DNA of 64,000 bases from the NCBI RefSeq assembly GCF_001306135.1, contig NZ_LGKP01000013.1, positions 62,001 to 126,000 on the forward strand, given 5' to 3'. How positions within the stretch are numbered: the first letter of the stretch is position 1; each line of letters begins with the position of its first letter. Shown piece after piece: positions 20,180-59,269 of this stretch. The stretch is from Herpetosiphon geysericola. Lineage in GTDB: Bacteria; Chloroflexota; Chloroflexia; Chloroflexales; Herpetosiphonaceae. The translations under genes and the position numbers were made by a program. The notes under the pieces are model-generated. The model ran no database searches. It was not told the origin of the DNA and was given only the letters and a program-made list of their open reading frames with translations.

Positions 20180-20278
20180 TACCCCCTAAATGGCAATCAT
20201 TGGAATTGGGCAATCAAATGATGAACTATAGGATCATTCGCATAGGCTTTTCATTGCCTGCACCTCAATTAACATCGG

Positions 20279-21802
20279 TTAAGCAAACAGCGGTGTATCG
20301 CCTTCGCTGCGTTCGCGGGGCAGCCACCAAATTGGAATCAAGGCCAACAAACAAATGACGGCGGCAGCAAAAAAGGTGCTATGGTAGACCGTCATCTCAT
20401 TTTGGGTGAATGCTGCTAGCGCCTTGCCATTCTCTAAGTCTTCGAGGGTTAATACCAAGCGACTGTTGAGGCTGTTACGATAGGCTAAACTCCACGAAGC
20501 TAAGGCTGAAACGCCCAAGGTAATGCCGACCATACGCAAGGCATTGAGCAAACCAGCTGCCGTGCCCATTGATTCGCGGGCAACATTGCCAATTGCGGCG
20601 GCGCTCAATGCTGGCAACACTAAGCCAAAGCCAGTTCCAGTAAGCAGCAAATAGAGCGTCAACATCCACTGGTTGGTTTCAAGGTTCCAAAAGCCAAGTA
20701 GGCTAAAACCCACCGCAGTGATGATCATGCCAAGGCTGGCAACCAAGCGCGCGCTGATCCGCCGCATTAACATTCCACCCAAAACAGCGCCAATCGGAAT
20801 CATAACCGTCAAGCGCATAAGGGTTAAGCCGCCGCTGAGGGCATCGCCGGAGAGCACGGTGCCAACAAAAAACGGCACATTGACCATGCCAACAATTAAG
20901 GCCATGCCAACCAACAAATTGGTGATATTGGCGGCGCTAAATGCTGGAGTGCGAAAGGCGCTTAGTTCAATTAACGGCGTTTTGGTGCGGCGTTCCCACC
21001 AAATAAAGCCAATAAAACTAACCACCGTTAATGCCAATAGCCCAATTGTGAGCGGCGATGTCCACTCAACTGCATATTGGTCGAGATTGCCGCTTTCGGC
21101 GCTTGGCTCGACGGCAAGACTGCCAAGCGAGCGCGAAAGTGCAACCGTCAATGCAGTTAAACTGATTGCGATCAAGCCGCCGCCGACATAATCGACAGCC
21201 CCGCGATTGCCTTGCCGATTTGGCAACGTCCGAATAATCGCCCATGCCAGCACTGCACCCAACGGTACATTGAGCCAGAAAACCCAGCGCCAACCATCAA
21301 CATCCAAAAGTTGAATTTGCGAGATCAGACCGCCATAGGCTGGGCCAAGCACTCCACCAGCTTCGCCAGCAGCGCCCATAATCCCCAAGGCTGTGGCATG
21401 ATGGATTGGTTTAACTTCGTCCATGGCAATTGCAAGACCAATCGGCAAGACCGCACCGCCGCCGATGGCCTGCACGATGCGCCAAGCGACCAATGACCAA
21501 ACGCTATTGGCCAAGGCACAGCCAATCGAGCCAACCACAAAAACGCCTAAAGCTGCCAAAAATAAGCGGCGATGGCCGTAGGCATCGGCGATGCGGCCAA
21601 GCAAGGGCATGGCGACTGTGTAGCCAAGCAAATAGCCAGTAATAACCCAAATGCCCTGTTCAAGTGCTTGATCGACGCTCAAACCCAAGGTGCTGACCAC
21701 ATTTGGTAAGACAGTGATCACCACCGTTTGGTCGAGTGCAGCCAGAAAAATAATCAGGGCTGTCCAAACAAGGCCCCATGGCCAGCGACGTGTTTCTGCC
21801 AT
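20279..21802 (-). CDS. MFS drug transporter, DHA2 family
   Basis: 507 residues with about 14 membrane segments, as in EmrB/QacA exporters. The first helix carries FLAALDQTVVITVLPNV, containing the D-x-x-I/V-V-x-x-A/V-L-P signature of the family. LLGRIADAYGHRRLF is motif A in the loop between helices 2 and 3, and LGPAYGGLI is the antiporter motif C. Likely a proton-driven exporter of small hydrophobic compounds; no regulator is adjacent. AGGAA precedes the ATG. Its 3' end lies about 100 bases past the double hairpin of the convergent polysaccharide operon. Confidence 0.9.
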   Translation of the reverse strand: MAETRRWPWGLVWTALIIFLAALDQTVVITVLPNVVSTLGLSVDQALEQGIWVITGYLLGYTVAMPLLGRIADAYGHRRLFLAALGVFVVGSIGCALANSVWSLVAWRIVQAIGGGAVLPIGLAIAMDEVKPIHHATALGIMGAAGEAGGVLGPAYGGLISQIQLLDVDGWRWVFWLNVPLGAVLAWAIIRTLPNRQGNRGAVDYVGGGLIAISLTALTVALSRSLGSLAVEPSAESGNLDQYAVEWTSPLTIGLLALTVVSFIGFIWWERRTKTPLIELSAFRTPAFSAANITNLLVGMALIVGMVNVPFFVGTVLSGDALSGGLTLMRLTVMIPIGAVLGGMLMRRISARLVASLGMIITAVGFSLLGFWNLETNQWMLTLYLLLTGTGFGLVLPALSAAAIGNVARESMGTAAGLLNALRMVGITLGVSALASWSLAYRNSLNSRLVLTLEDLENGKALAAFTQNEMTVYHSTFFAAAVICLLALIPIWWLPRERSEGDTPLFA

Positions 21803-22034
21803 ATCGTTGGATTCCTACCGCTAGTTTCTCTTCGTGCTGCATCATAGCATGTAGCTTTGGCCCCCGACAAGGATTGTAACGAGCGTTAACAGATGATCGT
21901 CTTTTTGCGCTTGAAGTAGCAGTTATCAGCAATGATCTGGTACTCAATTGAACGAAAAATAAATTCTATCCAGAGCAGTAATTATCGATTAGTAGATTCC
22001 ATAATCATTTATTAATTATAGATTAGAGATTTAG

Positions 22035-22054
22035 ATAGATAGGAAATTATCTAT
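22035..22054. repeat. Inverted repeat abutting a -35 box
   Basis: ATAGATA (22035-22041) and TATCTAT (22048-22054) with a 6-base spacer; the right arm touches the -35 hexamer of the promoter at 22054. Candidate operator. Confidence 0.45.
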
Positions 22055-22082
22055 TGACTTAAGATTTCAACCCATTTATAAT
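22054..22082 (+). promoter_or_regulatory. Consensus promoter of a short untranslated transcript
   Basis: TTGACT (22054-22059), 17-base spacer, TATAAT (22077-22082). It fires toward a terminator only about 75 bases downstream. Confidence 0.75.
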
Positions 22083-22088
22083 CACATC

Positions 22089-22162
22089 GAAGAAGTGAGA
22101 TGAGTTATCTAAATGAGGAATTTTGTAAACTCATCACAGAACTGTGACGAGTTTTTTATTTT
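22089..22162 (+). ncRNA. Candidate small RNA or attenuated leader with alternative hairpins
   Basis: The segment runs from the predicted start of the promoter above to an intrinsic terminator. The terminator stem is AACTCATCACAG (22128-22139) with CTGTGACGAGTT (22142-22153; one mismatch, so in practice a tighter loop), followed by TTTTTTATTTT. The terminator's 5' arm can instead pair perfectly with GATGAGTT (22099-22106). The two pairings are mutually exclusive, as in attenuators. It is either a stand-alone sRNA of about 74 bases or a leader controlling the secreted-protein gene at 22363. No known riboswitch class was recognised. A 22-codon frame starting at 22113 is present without a clear ribosome site. 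Confidence 0.55.
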
Positions 22163-22362
22163 AAACTATCTGATAGATTGAGGTGGGAGGTGCTTCGAGG
22201 AAAATCATATCTATCCACAATAACCATAGTGATCTAAATCTATTAATTTGAGGAATATTTGATTAATAAGCAAGGGTAAAATTGTTTGTTAATTCAATTA
22301 AATTAATAGAATAGATACGTTGCGGAAGATTACATTTTAATCGAATAGTAGAAGGATTTTTG

Positions 22363-54796: not shown

Positions 54797-55561
54797 ATGG
54801 AAATTCATTTGCTGCGCAATGCAACGATGCGCCTGCGCTATGCCCAGCATACCTTGCTTGCTGACCCTGATCTTGCGCCACGCCATGCGCGTGATTCGTT
54901 TACTGGGCGTTCACGCAATCCGCTGGTTGATTTGCCGCTGGCCAAAGAAGCGATTGTGGAAGGTATCGAGGCGGTTTTGCTGTCTCACCTGCATGCCGAT
55001 CATTTTGATGCTGAGGCGCAACAGCTTTTGCCAAAAGATATTCCCATTTTTTGCCAACCAGTTGATGCTGAACGGATTCAAGGCTATGGGTTTCGCACTG
55101 TTATTCCGGTCGATCACGTCGTTAATTGGCAGGGCATGCGGATTACGCGCGTAGCGGGTCAGCATGGCTTTGGCGCTGACCTCGCAAGCATGGGCCAAGT
55201 ATCTGGATTTGTGTTGGCGGCGGCGCTTGAACCAACGCTGTATTGGGTTGGCGATAGCGTGTGGTATCCCGAGGTTGCAACTACGATTGAAAAGTTTCAG
55301 CCAAACGTAATCGTGACCCATTCTTCTGGCGCGATTTGGGAGGCAGGAACGCCGATTGTGATGGATGCTGAGCAAACTATAATGCTGTGTCAGGCCACAA
55401 CCGCCAGTACGGTCGTTGCGATTCATCTGGATTCGCTGGATCATGGTCAGGTGTCGCGAACAGAACTGCGTATGGCTGCCAAGGCTGCTGGAATTTCCGA
55501 GGCGCAACTCTTAATTCCCAACGATGGTGAGCTGCTGCGCTTCGACGATTCATCAGCATGA
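54797..55561 (+). CDS. MBL-fold metallohydrolase (UlaG-like)
   Basis: 254 residues with GAGGAA before the ATG. Zinc motif SHLHADHFDA (H-x-H-x-D-H), a further GQHGFG histidine, YWVGDSVWY (bridging Asp) and the final IHLDSLDHG histidine give the full metal set. UlaG-like members open lactones or act as phosphodiesterases; substrate unknown. The first residues show MRLRYAQHTLLADPDLAPRH, typical of the group. A 12-bp hairpin follows the stop. Confidence 0.87.
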   Translation: MEIHLLRNATMRLRYAQHTLLADPDLAPRHARDSFTGRSRNPLVDLPLAKEAIVEGIEAVLLSHLHADHFDAEAQQLLPKDIPIFCQPVDAERIQGYGFRTVIPVDHVVNWQGMRITRVAGQHGFGADLASMGQVSGFVLAAALEPTLYWVGDSVWYPEVATTIEKFQPNVIVTHSSGAIWEAGTPIVMDAEQTIMLCQATTASTVVAIHLDSLDHGQVSRTELRMAAKAAGISEAQLLIPNDGELLRFDDSSA

Positions 55562-55594: not shown

Positions 55595-55623
55595 CATGGC
55601 ACGAAGTTGAGCTTCGTGCCATG
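55595..55623. terminator. Bidirectional terminator hairpin
   Basis: CATGGCACGAAG and CTTCGTGCCATG (55595-55606, 55612-55623), 5-base loop, between the MBL gene (+) and the VWA gene (-). Confidence 0.75.
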
Positions 55624-55634
55624 CAACGTGTTGG

Positions 55635-56798
55635 TTATTCAAGGAGTAACCGAATGGCCTCGCCAAAGGGAAAAGCCTCGCTATCAAGGCCGCCAGCAAC
55701 TACCACCCACAATAATGGATATTCAGGAGGCCTTGATGGAAAACTGCCATAACCATCGGTCAAATAGACTGCGACAATTGGCATATGAGGGCGGATTAAG
55801 TCCTCAAGGGCCGCAAAGAAGGGGCGAAAATCGGTGCCACCGCCGCCGATTGGCGCAGGAATTGGGCTATGGGCGGTGAGTTGAAATGGCCCATGAGCTT
55901 CTGCATCAACATAAAACAACTCACAGGTGATATGCGGATAGGCGCGCAAAATCCCCTGCACCTCATCCATAAAGAGCCGCAAATGACGCTCATCGATTGA
56001 GCCGCTGGTATCGACCGCCACAAAAACTTGCAGACTCTCGCCTGCTAAGGCATCGATATAGAGACCCCGACTCAAAAAACGCCGATCAAAGCCCACAAAA
56101 TCGGTGGGTGTTTGCACCAAATAGCGCCATAAATAGGTACGCCAATCGAGTTTCTCAGGGTCGGTGCTGCTCAATTCACGGCGCATGCTGCTGGGCAAAC
56201 TGCCTTGGGCGACCATCAGCGCAATCAGATCTGCTTGGTGGCGCGCATTGCGCCAATGGGCTTCCAATACTGCGTTGCGTTTGGTGCCGCGCGTCTCTTG
56301 TTCAAAGCCGCCTTGGCCACTGAGACCCGATCGATCAGCCTCGGTTGCGTCGAGCAAATCAAGGCTATCGCTCAGCGGGTAGCGGCTGGGGTCGCGGACT
56401 AACAATTCGTACACTTCTTCGACGCTTAATGCTTCAAGCTCAGGGTCGCGCTGGGTCATTGGGTCACAGCCAATGCCCTCGATAGTGCTGATGATGCCAT
56501 TCAACACAATATCGCAGGCAGTATTCCAAATCCGTGGGTTGCGACTGCCACGGCGGGGAAGATGCAGCAAGGCAGCATGCAACACCTGATGCACAATCAA
56601 ACGATCTTGGTCTTGCTGGCGTAGAGTGGCGAAATAGTCAGCGTTGACATACACCCGTTCACCATCAGTTGCCGCCTGATTCACATTCGTTGCAGCAACC
56701 ACGGGCGCAAATAACACCAAGCTAGCAAAGTAGGCAGAACGAGTGCGTAGCCGCAGCACCGACGCACTAATCATGCGTTCAAATTCGGCGGCACTCAT
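55635..56798 (-). CDS. DUF2201 metallopeptidase-like/VWA-like protein
   Basis: 387 residues from ATG 56798; its ATG overlaps the stop of the MoxR gene as ATGA, so the longer frame is rejected. The N-terminal half has a zinc-protease-like HQVLHAALLH (His70, His74, His79), as in the DUF2201 putative metallopeptidase domain. The C-terminal half is a VWA-like fold with the MIDAS start VAVDTSGSIDERHLRLF and GGGGTDFRPFFAALE. COG3864 proteins of this kind pair with MoxR ATPases, which are thought to act as chaperones for metal insertion or complex assembly. Last gene of the triad. Confidence 0.88.
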   Translation of the reverse strand: MSAAEFERMISASVLRLRTRSAYFASLVLFAPVVAATNVNQAATDGERVYVNADYFATLRQQDQDRLIVHQVLHAALLHLPRRGSRNPRIWNTACDIVLNGIISTIEGIGCDPMTQRDPELEALSVEEVYELLVRDPSRYPLSDSLDLLDATEADRSGLSGQGGFEQETRGTKRNAVLEAHWRNARHQADLIALMVAQGSLPSSMRRELSSTDPEKLDWRTYLWRYLVQTPTDFVGFDRRFLSRGLYIDALAGESLQVFVAVDTSGSIDERHLRLFMDEVQGILRAYPHITCELFYVDAEAHGPFQLTAHSPIPAPIGGGGTDFRPFFAALEDLIRPHMPIVAVYLTDGYGSFPSRPPEYPLLWVVVAGGLDSEAFPFGEAIRLLLE

Positions 56799-57793
56799 GC
56801 CAGCATCCGTTGATATGCTTGGAAGAAGGTTTGCAATTGGGCATCGCCCTGAACATAGGCTGCAAAGGCCCCAATTTGGCCCTTGAGCCGTAACTGCCGC
56901 ATCAGATCGGCAATAAAGACCTGCACCCATTCAGTTGGTGCATGGGCCGCCATCCAACAAAAGGCTTGATAGGCGCTATCGGCGTTTGCAGCCCGTAAGG
57001 TCAAGCCGATCGTGTTGGCATAGCGTGCCCCAGGCTCGCTTGGAAAGGCGAGGTTTGCGCCTTCACCACGCAGAATCGCCTCAAAATCTGGTAGGGTTTG
57101 ATACAGCTCGATGTAGGAGTAAAATTCTGCTGCTGCATCAATGCCCACCACCGGAGCAAGATCAAGCGCTGCTTGGTAGAGTTGGCTGGCCATAACCCAT
57201 GAGCGTGGCGACGGCCACGCTGGATGCTGCGGATTGAGCTTATGCAACAAGGTTGGGCGAAACGAGAGAAAGGCAATCACCTGCTCAGCCACATTCGCAT
57301 TCAGCGCATAGGCCTTAAAACTATCAAAATCGGGCGCAACTTCGAGGTGGACAAAGCGATTCGCCAACGGTGCTGGCATATCGAAAACCGAGGCTCGATC
57401 CTCTTTGCGATTGCCTGCGGCCCAAACAAACCAGCCCTCAGGCAGCGTATACGAGCCAACTCGTCGATCAAGAATCAGTTGTTGGGCAACCCCTTGCATG
57501 GCTGGGGGTGCCATGTTTAATTCATCAAGAAACAAGATACCTTGCCCAGTTTGGGGCAGAAACTCTGGTGGAAACCAGCGTGAAATTCCATTATCAGGCA
57601 CTGGCAAGCCCCGCAGATCGGTTGGTGCAAGCTGCGATAACCGGACATCAATAAACTCAATGCCCCTGTGCTGGGCAATTTGGGCCACAATGCTCGATTT
57701 ACCAATTCCTGGCGGTCCCCAGATCATCGTGCTGAGATACAGCTTTTTTTGCACTAGCGTATCGAGGTAGTGCTGTAATTCTAACGGATTCAT
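56795..57793 (-). CDS. MoxR-family AAA+ ATPase
   Basis: 332 residues. Walker A WGPPGIGKSS (residues 25-34), Walker B GILFLDELN, sensor AAGNRKEDRA and the arginine-rich LANRFVHLEV region are standard for MoxR. Start and stop overlap both neighbours by 4 bases (ATGA at each end), meaning tightly coupled translation of all three genes. The client is presumably the VWA/metallopeptidase partner; the LRV protein encoded upstream may be another component. Confidence 0.92.
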   Translation of the reverse strand: MNPLELQHYLDTLVQKKLYLSTMIWGPPGIGKSSIVAQIAQHRGIEFIDVRLSQLAPTDLRGLPVPDNGISRWFPPEFLPQTGQGILFLDELNMAPPAMQGVAQQLILDRRVGSYTLPEGWFVWAAGNRKEDRASVFDMPAPLANRFVHLEVAPDFDSFKAYALNANVAEQVIAFLSFRPTLLHKLNPQHPAWPSPRSWVMASQLYQAALDLAPVVGIDAAAEFYSYIELYQTLPDFEAILRGEGANLAFPSEPGARYANTIGLTLRAANADSAYQAFCWMAAHAPTEWVQVFIADLMRQLRLKGQIGAFAAYVQGDAQLQTFFQAYQRMLA

Positions 57794-59175
57794 GCCTGCT
57801 CCTTCACTCGTTGCTCAAGCGCAGTTTGGGCTGCGCGGCGGACAAAACAATGAGCGTCGACGGTCAATGCCCTGACAATCTCGATTGGAACTGCCGGATT
57901 GAGCGCCAAAGCATAGCGCGCATACCAATAGGGCGAGCGCAGACCTTTGCGCAAATGTTGCGGATCGGTGTATTGATTGGCCATGGCAATAAAGTGAAAC
58001 ATCGGGTGTGCCGAATACAGTGCTGCGGTTAACGCCCGATCAAGCAATTGTTGGCGCGCTTCAATGGTGGTTTGCTGGTTGCGGACGACTGCATTGCGCA
58101 CCTGAATCGATTCATCGGTGGCCAAGTGGGCTAAAATGTCAGGGGTGACGTTGGGATGTTGGGCAATTGCCTTGCGCATGCGTAAGGCCGACCAGCTATA
58201 ATCGCGGGCCATCGTCGCCAATAACTCAGCGGGAAGATTGGGGTTTAACGCCAGCGCATTGCGTACCGGCTGCACATCGTCAAGCTCTAAGCGGGACAAC
58301 ACATCGAGCGGGGTATTAACATTAAAGGCAACCCGGGCACGCACGCTTGGGTCGTCATCATCAGCGAGCAGCCTGAGGATGACGGGGTCGCTCGATTCAG
58401 CGGCAAGTTTGCGTAGCTCGCGATCTGCGGTACCAATACTGGCCTGATCAAAGGGTTGGTTATTGATTGTATAGCTCATCGCCGCAAACACTTCGTCTTC
58501 CAAGACCGTGACTGTTTGCTGCAAGGCTTGTTGAATGTGTTCCTCGGTTGATTCATGAAGGCGTTGCTCAAGCCATGCTGGCATTGTTCGCAGTATCAGA
58601 TGCTCAATCAACGCCTCTTGGCCATCAATTGATGGTAGCGGAATCTGGGCCAGTAGGGCTTCAGCTTGCGCTTGCCAATCGGCGCCAGCCTCGCCATAAC
58701 TATTGATATGGTAGGCAATGGCGTGAGCAACATTTGGCGAAGCATAGCCACGAATCGTATTCAGCAGATTAGCAGGGATTGACGCATGACGCAGAAATAA
58801 TAATAAGCGCAACTCATCCATCTGGCGAAATAAATCGGGATGTTCAAGCAACAGCAACAGCAAAACAGGATTGGCGAGAAACGCTTCGGGAACGTCAGCG
58901 GCAAAGTGTAAGAGTGTTTTTTGCGGCGTATTGGGGTTGGCAACCAAGGCGGTAACAATCGCCGTGCGTGGATGAGGATCTAAAACAACTGCTAATGGGC
59001 CTTGGCGGCCAACAAAGCGCAGGAAGTCGGTTCCAGAAGTGGGGCGTTCAAAGTCGGGGTCGGATACCAACTCAAGATAATTGGCAATCCGCAACAGTTC
59101 TTCAGGTGTGGTTGTCGGGTCAGACGCTGCTTGGATTATGGCTTGTTCGTCAAGCGATAATTGCTGATTTGTCAC
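57790..59175 (-). CDS. Leucine-rich repeat variant (LRV) protein
   Basis: 461 residues from GTG 59175, chosen because GGGAGGG lies 7 bases upstream; earlier TTG (59214) and ATG (59202) starts have no such site. The second half consists of LRV-type helical repeats: SVRARVAFNVNTPLDVLSRL, VQPVRNALALNPNLPAELLA, MRKAIAQHPNVTPDILAHLA, IQVRNAVVRNQQTTIEA, YARYALALNPAVPIEIVRAL. A Leu-rich segment (PVLLLLLLEHPDLF) lies in the first half. No membrane segment. Such solenoids bind proteins; it probably presents or recognises the MoxR-VWA client. First gene of the triad. Confidence 0.83.
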   Translation of the reverse strand: MTNQQLSLDEQAIIQAASDPTTTPEELLRIANYLELVSDPDFERPTSGTDFLRFVGRQGPLAVVLDPHPRTAIVTALVANPNTPQKTLLHFAADVPEAFLANPVLLLLLLEHPDLFRQMDELRLLLFLRHASIPANLLNTIRGYASPNVAHAIAYHINSYGEAGADWQAQAEALLAQIPLPSIDGQEALIEHLILRTMPAWLEQRLHESTEEHIQQALQQTVTVLEDEVFAAMSYTINNQPFDQASIGTADRELRKLAAESSDPVILRLLADDDDPSVRARVAFNVNTPLDVLSRLELDDVQPVRNALALNPNLPAELLATMARDYSWSALRMRKAIAQHPNVTPDILAHLATDESIQVRNAVVRNQQTTIEARQQLLDRALTAALYSAHPMFHFIAMANQYTDPQHLRKGLRSPYWYARYALALNPAVPIEIVRALTVDAHCFVRRAAQTALEQRVKEQA

Positions 59176-59269
59176 AGGAAACCCTCCCGATAGATTGCTC
59201 ATTGCGCTACTCAAATCCCCAAATGGCTAACCTTCGCTGATTGTACCATTGAATGGAATGGCTCTTTTG

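Follow-up and report, generated by a model that had tools for sequence, protein, structure and literature searches.

Three overlapping genes in Herpetosiphon geysericola

The window analysed here is a stretch of 64,000 nucleotides from the genome of H. geysericola (contig NZ_LGKP01000013.1, positions 62,001 to 126,000), and positions given without a locus handle refer to it. Its minus strand carries a triad of genes encoding, in the order of transcription, an LRV alpha-solenoid protein, a MoxR-like AAA+ ATPase and a DUF2201 protein with a VWA domain (Table 1). Reading of the sequence bore out the coordinates of the triad in the initial annotation, together with the ATGA overlaps described there at both junctions. 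A survey of the 6.1-Mb Herpetosiphon genome (G000) showed that the single LRV_2 gene and the single DUF2201_N gene are both in the triad, and that six further MoxR-type matches all lack an LRV gene; the idea that LRV proteins are general companions of MoxR was therefore rejected for this genome.

Profile search confirmed the identities proposed for the ATPase and its VWA partner. The DUF2201 protein matched DUF2201_N with an E value of 1.3e-24 (87.7 bits, cut-off 23.2) and DUF2201 with an E value of 3.6e-18 (66.3 bits, cut-off 26.4), both of the profiles used (PF13203 and PF09967) being above cut-off. The ATPase matched AAA_5 (E 2.2e-7), and the MoxR-type Pfam model AAA_3 gave 25.3 bits with the protein and 27.7 bits on the genome, at a cut-off of 27. 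The best PHROG matches were phrog_1297 for the ATPase (E 1.3e-83) and phrog_1314 for the DUF2201 protein. The Walker A and B, sensor and Arg positions of the ATPase are kept across 81 aligned rows and, judged by this alignment, the motifs of the window protein are intact.

The LRV assignment survived profile search as well, with LRV_2 (PF25591; E 4.6e-10, 39.8 bits, cut-off 27) and LRV (PF01816; E 3.2e-6, 27.6 bits, cut-off 21.6) above the Pfam cut-offs. Besides weak ones, all profile matches of this protein were LRV/HEAT-type, in a Pfam set that may lack a VMAP model. The AlphaFold2 model consists of helical repeats (mean predicted local distance difference test score 80.6), and among its PDB matches was the Azotobacter LRV protein 1lrv (Z 8.8, root-mean-square deviation 7.6, 193 aligned residues, covering residues 239-460). 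The Azotobacter protein carries a Cys-rich Fe-S cluster module, which the Pfam families do not require; the window protein has one Cys in 461 residues, indicating that a cluster of this kind is absent.

Comparison of Herpetosiphon orthologues gave ratios of nonsynonymous to synonymous substitution rates (dN/dS) of about 0.10-0.16 for the LRV gene, 0.04-0.07 for the DUF2201 gene and 0.02-0.04 for the ATPase gene. All three are thus under purifying selection, indicating that they are real genes. The LRV gene evolves several-fold faster than the ATPase gene, yet its gene-wide ratio gave no sign of diversifying selection. A second copy of the triad was found on another contig of G003 (L110:6474-10014), and the match spans window positions 55629-59186, almost exactly the triad, suggesting that the triad behaves as one unit. 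In G007, an intact LRV gene is retained despite its relocation away from the MoxR-DUF2201 pair. Broken triads are present in G020 (L104:4111-6942), where the LRV sequence continues into the 3' part of the ATPase gene, and in G046 (L105:2871-7580), where the ATPase and DUF2201 genes are split; in each of them more than one triad gene is damaged.

In the DUF2201 protein, modelled residues 250-387 match the VWA fold (Z about 13), and the metal ion-dependent adhesion site (MIDAS) is complete (D263, S265, S267, T322 and D348). The initial annotation had called the protein a metallopeptidase and noted a zinc-like H-x3-H-x4-H motif. The motif itself stood, as none of H70, H74 and H79 varies among the 74 aligned rows, while the name did not: at position 71, each of the six Herpetosiphonaceae loci in the alignment has Gln where the putative catalytic Glu would be (they fill seven rows, as L006 and P0003, the window protein, are one gene). 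Glu is present in the other 67 rows and is kept in a cyanophage, an N4-like phage and the genomes G091 and G174; at the equivalent position, two further Chloroflexales genomes have Ala (G020) and Arg (G046). Because Glu is replaced by Gln, standard HExxH hydrolysis or peptidase action by the window protein is unlikely on these alignments. The zincin-like half gave only a weak match to an M48 peptidase profile (E 0.075), and no zincin was among the Foldseek/VIA structure matches, whose rows cover mainly the VWA half and so exclude nothing. The loss of the Glu in one family is a warning against calling DUF2201 a protease by name. In G008, a second, divergent MoxR-DUF2201 pair (L107:8772-11305) has HCLLH in place of HExxH.

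A promoter scan of the locus returned no score above those of shuffled sequences. The inverted repeat listed in Table 1 stands between the DUF2201 gene and a convergent gene ending at 55561; it is absent from the list of a terminator scan that requires a T run.

Table 1. Features of the triad and its borders (window coordinates)
Feature	Position	Strand	Remarks
LRV alpha-solenoid protein, putative third component	57790..59175	-	461 aa, GTG start
MoxR-like AAA+ ATPase	56795..57793	-	332 aa, ATG start
DUF2201 protein, zincin-like N-terminal half and C-terminal VWA domain	55635..56798	-	387 aa, ATG start
Dock segment, LRV protein residues 77-137, conserved between phyla	58765..58947	-	Alignments; putative docking role
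HQVLHAALLH, DUF2201 protein residues 70-79, HExxH-type with Gln for Glu	56562..56591	-	Alignment
DTSGS of the MIDAS, DUF2201 protein residues 263-267	55998..56012	-	Alignment
ATGA overlap, LRV stop / MoxR start	57790..57793	-	Read from sequence
ATGA overlap, MoxR stop / DUF2201 start	56795..56798	-	Read from sequence
GGGAGGG, ribosome-site-like, before the LRV GTG start	59182..59188	-	Read from sequence
Perfect 12-bp inverted repeat, 5-base loop; possible terminator	55595..55623		Read from sequence

LRV partners of the MoxR-DUF2201 pair

To avoid a bias towards LRV proteins, 80 loci were fetched by the ATPase alone. The result showed that an LRV relative is present in 61 of the 80 by phmmer, that the dock segment described below is present in 62, and that one or the other is present in 63. 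By record, the loci come from Chloroflexota, Cyanobacteria, Deinococcota, Proteobacteria, Verrucomicrobia, Armatimonadetes and others. The partner is found at most 300 bases upstream, on the same strand, in 43 loci and further upstream in 4, on the opposite strand in 4, between the MoxR and DUF2201 genes or directly after MoxR in 7, and downstream in 5; in 17 none was seen (not 19, as L070 and L072, with the partner downstream of MoxR, were regrouped from none to between). A -4 overlap between the LRV and MoxR genes also occurs in L008-L011, L015, L027, L031 and L083, spanning Herpetosiphonaceae, two cyanobacteria, a Spartobacterium and Prosthecobacter (with a HEAT-type partner), and a -4 overlap between MoxR and DUF2201, judged by open reading frame (ORF) start, occurs in 10 of the 80 loci. 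The loci led to 24 whole genomes (L014 was left out of 25). In these, 23 of 31 DUF2201 matches have LRV_2 at a distance of up to 10 kb, and 23 of 74 LRV clusters lie near DUF2201 against 0.25 expected, a count that took in 150 of 160 LRV_2 matches. The LRV gene thus recurs beside the pair in relatives and, with the repeat assignment upheld as well, neither of the refuting conditions set in the initial annotation came true. Chance adjacency of the LRV gene and the pair was rejected, given the single gene copies in G000 and a proximity far above expectation.

Where LRV is missing, other repeat proteins often adjoin the pair, namely pentapeptide repeat proteins (L014, L018, L035, L041, L047, L057 and L076), an LRR protein (L078) and HEAT proteins (L083, and L084 in opposite orientation). 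Pentapeptide proteins are the commonest neighbour family, with 11 of 134 neighbour ORFs, a number without a background count, and they are frequent in cyanobacteria.

Alignment of the partners, which differ greatly in length, showed a common segment of about 61 residues (NPNTPxxxLLxLxxxFPxxxLxNPVLxLLLLExPxL...P). We call it the dock, a name that is a guess at its function; a role as docking site is our inference from the alignments. Of 133 distinct ORFs with lengths of 108-1511 aa, 129 have the start of the dock among their first 100 residues. The dock is absent from the LRV proteins of G024 and G027 (E 0.14 and 0.77), genomes without DUF2201. A role of the dock Glu as MIDAS ligand was not favoured, as the Glu of LLxLE occurs in only 18 of 22 alignment rows counted by eye.

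The dock is present in 23 of the 24 whole genomes. A strong DUF2201 class (from about 84 bits upwards in the 24 genomes, more than 100 bits in the cyanobacterial sample) was separated from a weaker one (64-76 bits, frames of about 600 aa), the split being drawn after the scores had been seen. Within 10 kb of strong-class DUF2201 lie 47 of 111 dock matches in the 24 genomes, against 0.27 expected; a dock lies within 10 kb of 23 of the 27 strong-class loci and of 0 of the 4 weaker ones. The cyanobacterial sample (seed aside) and plasmid pSYSA are outside the dock training set and provide a fairer test. At a threshold of E up to 1e-8, the dock was found in 3 of 98 sampled cyanobacteria, G063 (the seed), G091 and G174, and the same three carry strong DUF2201; the weaker class occurs in G125 and G155, both without dock. 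Fisher's test, which counts related genomes as independent here and below, gave p 2e-4 without the seed and 1.3e-3 when any DUF2201 was counted. Among 60 Chloroflexales relatives, the dock was found in G000, G001, G003, G004, G005, G007, G008, G020 and G046, that is, in all seven DUF2201-bearing genomes vs two of the 53 others (G001 and G004; Fisher p 9e-8).

A single pair can have many partners. At least two partner ORFs were found in 29 of the 80 loci. In the cyanobacterial genome G091, seven tandem dock-LRV genes stand directly before MoxR-DUF2201 (L111:4144-12639), and G061, G064 and G073, where the strong pair occurs once per genome, have totals of 17, 17 and 20 dock matches. Among 133 dock genes, 23 contain tandem DNA repeats whose period is at least 60, mostly 78 bp and thus 26 aa, suggesting that solenoids lengthen by unit duplication. 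The LRV protein of Synechocystis PCC 6803 on pSYSA (L133:12267-14183; pSYSA 20266-22182) contains several near-identical 26-residue repeats, a sign of recent expansion.

Genomic surroundings of related loci

The Synechocystis PCC 6803 set consists of the LRV gene SGL_RS00715, a DUF262 gene, the VWA gene SGL_RS00745 and the MoxR gene SGL_RS00750, and is flanked by type I-D CRISPR genes on one side and toxin-antitoxin genes on the other. SGL_RS00715 matches the dock with an E value of 4.7e-23 and lies about 5 kb from the pair. PMC9978351 describes pSYSA as a plasmid specialised in defence. A DruE1-like helicase gene is upstream of the pair in L075. In Limnohabitans (G076), DruE3 and DruH3 genes resembling Druantia type III adjoin WGR-LRV, MoxR and DUF2201 genes at L117 and L118; the LRV partners at L117 have WGR domains, and an ankyrin-DUF4132 gene and two more dock genes follow further on. 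A PADLOC scan of 134 neighbour ORFs (of 140, with 19 near-duplicate loci left out) returned scattered single matches (DpdE, ZorD, AbiLi, DrmD, PDC-M38A and others). As these matches are scattered and a background set is lacking, enrichment of defence genes around the loci is not claimed. In PADLOC-DB, the LRV and DUF2201 proteins of the window had no match at E 1, and the ATPase matched IetA weakly (0.0012).

Relatives of the ATPase occur in 817 of 50,697 phage records; no LRV relative was found in these records, and no near relative of the ATPase was found in viral contigs. Carriage of the whole triad by phages was rejected on these grounds. In cyanophage S-TIM54 (L131:4488-7120), genes for Hsp20, a MoxR-like ATPase and a DUF2201-type protein with HETLH stand in a row near virion genes.

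Proposed mechanism, alternatives and known systems

We lean, with slightly better than even confidence, towards the reading that the three genes specify one ternary MoxR-vWA machine in which the LRV solenoid supplies specificity. The MoxR protein would form a hexameric ring, and the VWA domain of the DUF2201 protein would sit on this ring at the pore, as in NorQD (PMC13036017). The LRV protein would attach through the dock near its N terminus, and target recognition would fall to the solenoid; ATP hydrolysis would then remodel or release the target. In Herpetosiphonaceae, the zincin-like half would be a metal-binding or structural module and not a protease, and several interchangeable solenoids would share a single pair in many cyanobacteria. 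The initial annotation had suggested that the solenoid could select a client. This is compatible with the occurrence of one pair with many solenoids and with the shared N-terminal segment, but as far as sequences go the solenoids could equally be the clients; a third component that brings targets, which we prefer, and one that is itself the target would each agree with a layout of one to many and with an N-terminal segment that stays the same.

As to purpose, surveillance or conflict appears the likeliest, if a weakly supported one. A role in stress or conflict response had been proposed for the window triad; related loci agree with it, through the defence plasmid pSYSA and the Druantia neighbours, whereas no defence neighbour was recognised beside the window copy, where PADLOC covered the triad proteins alone. 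A defence role is thus suggested by those loci and not by the window. An extension of the preferred reading, possible but more tentative, is a surveillance system built as hub and spokes, in which one hub of MoxR and zincin-VWA proteins would read a set of LRV receptors; these would have an N-terminal plug in common and would vary and lengthen by duplication of 26-residue repeats. Many targets would then feed one ATP-driven switch, the hub of Herpetosiphonaceae would be a pseudo-peptidase, and the whole would add one more class to the MoxR-vWA ternary conflict systems. The layout of one hub and many solenoids resembles receptor repertoires feeding a common switch. Because the complete set is present on pSYSA, the proposal is directly testable in Synechocystis PCC 6803.

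Several findings weigh against the ternary machine or its proposed purpose. No defence gene was recognised beside the window triad, where PADLOC was run on the three triad proteins and not on the flanks. In the available DNA, the 17 loci mentioned above, some of which are cut by contig ends, show neither an LRV nor a dock partner, and the genome of L041 holds the pair but has zero dock matches. The counts from the 24 genomes are partly circular, as presence of the pair guided the choice of these genomes and partners from the loci served to train the dock profile. The first 16 columns of the dock resemble an ordinary LRV repeat, with weak repeat matches, while the remaining columns do not. Finally, a dock-type LRV gene occurs in G001 and G004, which have no DUF2201, and argues against strict dependence of the two. 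It belongs to a second LRV family of Herpetosiphon, with proteins of about 455 aa, whose genes stand by kinase-like genes in G000 (L127:8354-9721), G001 (L128:8633-9997) and G004 (L129:7531-8775, broken into two frames); the family is also present in G005.

It is also conceivable, though on the whole somewhat unlikely, that the LRV proteins are clients and the pair is a dedicated maturation chaperone, like NorQD, that folds, metal-loads or assembles repeat proteins by using the N-terminal segment as a handle. Maturation of dedicated neighbours is a known task of MoxR-VWA chaperone pairs (PMC13036017), one pair with many solenoids would suit a chaperone for a client family, and other repeat proteins adjoin the pair where LRV is missing. 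However, the pentapeptide proteins among these are common in cyanobacteria and their count has no background, the window solenoid with its single Cys lacks the Fe-S cluster of the Azotobacter protein, and the G001 paralogue without DUF2201 suggests that some solenoids manage without the pair.

A triggered protease, in which the solenoid would sense an invader and the MoxR ring would unleash the zincin half of the DUF2201 protein, is improbable. It would suit the members that keep HExxH (67 of the 74 aligned rows), and it agrees with the MoxR/metallopeptidase-vWA pair of jumbo phages and the MoxR-vWA-peptidase-iSTAND counter-invader systems (PMC7824862 and PMC12839542), with the pSYSA location and with the Druantia-type neighbours in L075 and Limnohabitans L117; but it does not suit the window copy, in view of the Gln shared by the six Herpetosiphonaceae loci and of the Ala and Arg in the broken loci. 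Very improbable, and already disfavoured, is a pair that is a domesticated chaperone of phage virion assembly with the LRV protein as unrelated passenger. The ATPase relatives in phage records, the S-TIM54 pair near virion genes and the best PHROG matches speak for such an origin, whereas the lack of LRV relatives in phage records and of near ATPase relatives in viral contigs, and the spread of the LRV association over several phyla, speak against it.

Compared with known systems, the ternary machine that we prefer shares parts with each of four. The Azotobacter protein 1lrv belongs to the same repeat family and has the same solenoid fold; the window LRV protein differs from it in its single Cys, with no Fe-S cluster domain of the 1lrv kind, in the dock segment and in its MoxR-VWA partners. 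NorQ-NorD and RavA-ViaA likewise combine a MoxR ring with a VWA partner, with a MIDAS in NorD, but have known enzymes as targets, nitric oxide reductase in the case of the maturation chaperone NorQ-NorD, and no LRV protein is named for them in the accessible part of PMC13036017. The pair of group 2.2 jumbo phages, proposed to act in virion assembly (PMC7824862), apparently has the same architecture, as phrog_1297 and phrog_1314 match the window proteins; it differs in having no LRV component, the term being absent from the accessible text of that paper and LRV matches from the phage records.

MoxR-vWA ternary systems and the jumbo-phage pair are thus already known. An LRV protein with MoxR, a dock segment and the loss of the Glu were not found in the open-access literature searched, which is not proof of absence. 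The accessible part of PMC7159879 divides the ternary conflict systems into four types, VMAP, iSTAND, FtsH and beta-propeller, and does not contain the terms LRV and DUF2201. Like these systems, the triad has a MoxR and vWA core with a third component, and its gene order of third component, MoxR and vWA is that of the VMAP type; in layout, a MoxR gene, a vWA gene and a conserved third component stand in one predicted operon. The differences lie in the third component, an LRV solenoid whose N-terminal segment is conserved, and in the vWA protein, which has an N-terminal zincin-like domain. If the preferred reading is true, a class of third component would be added to the MoxR-vWA ternary systems and the LRV repeat family, otherwise unassigned, would gain a partner machine.

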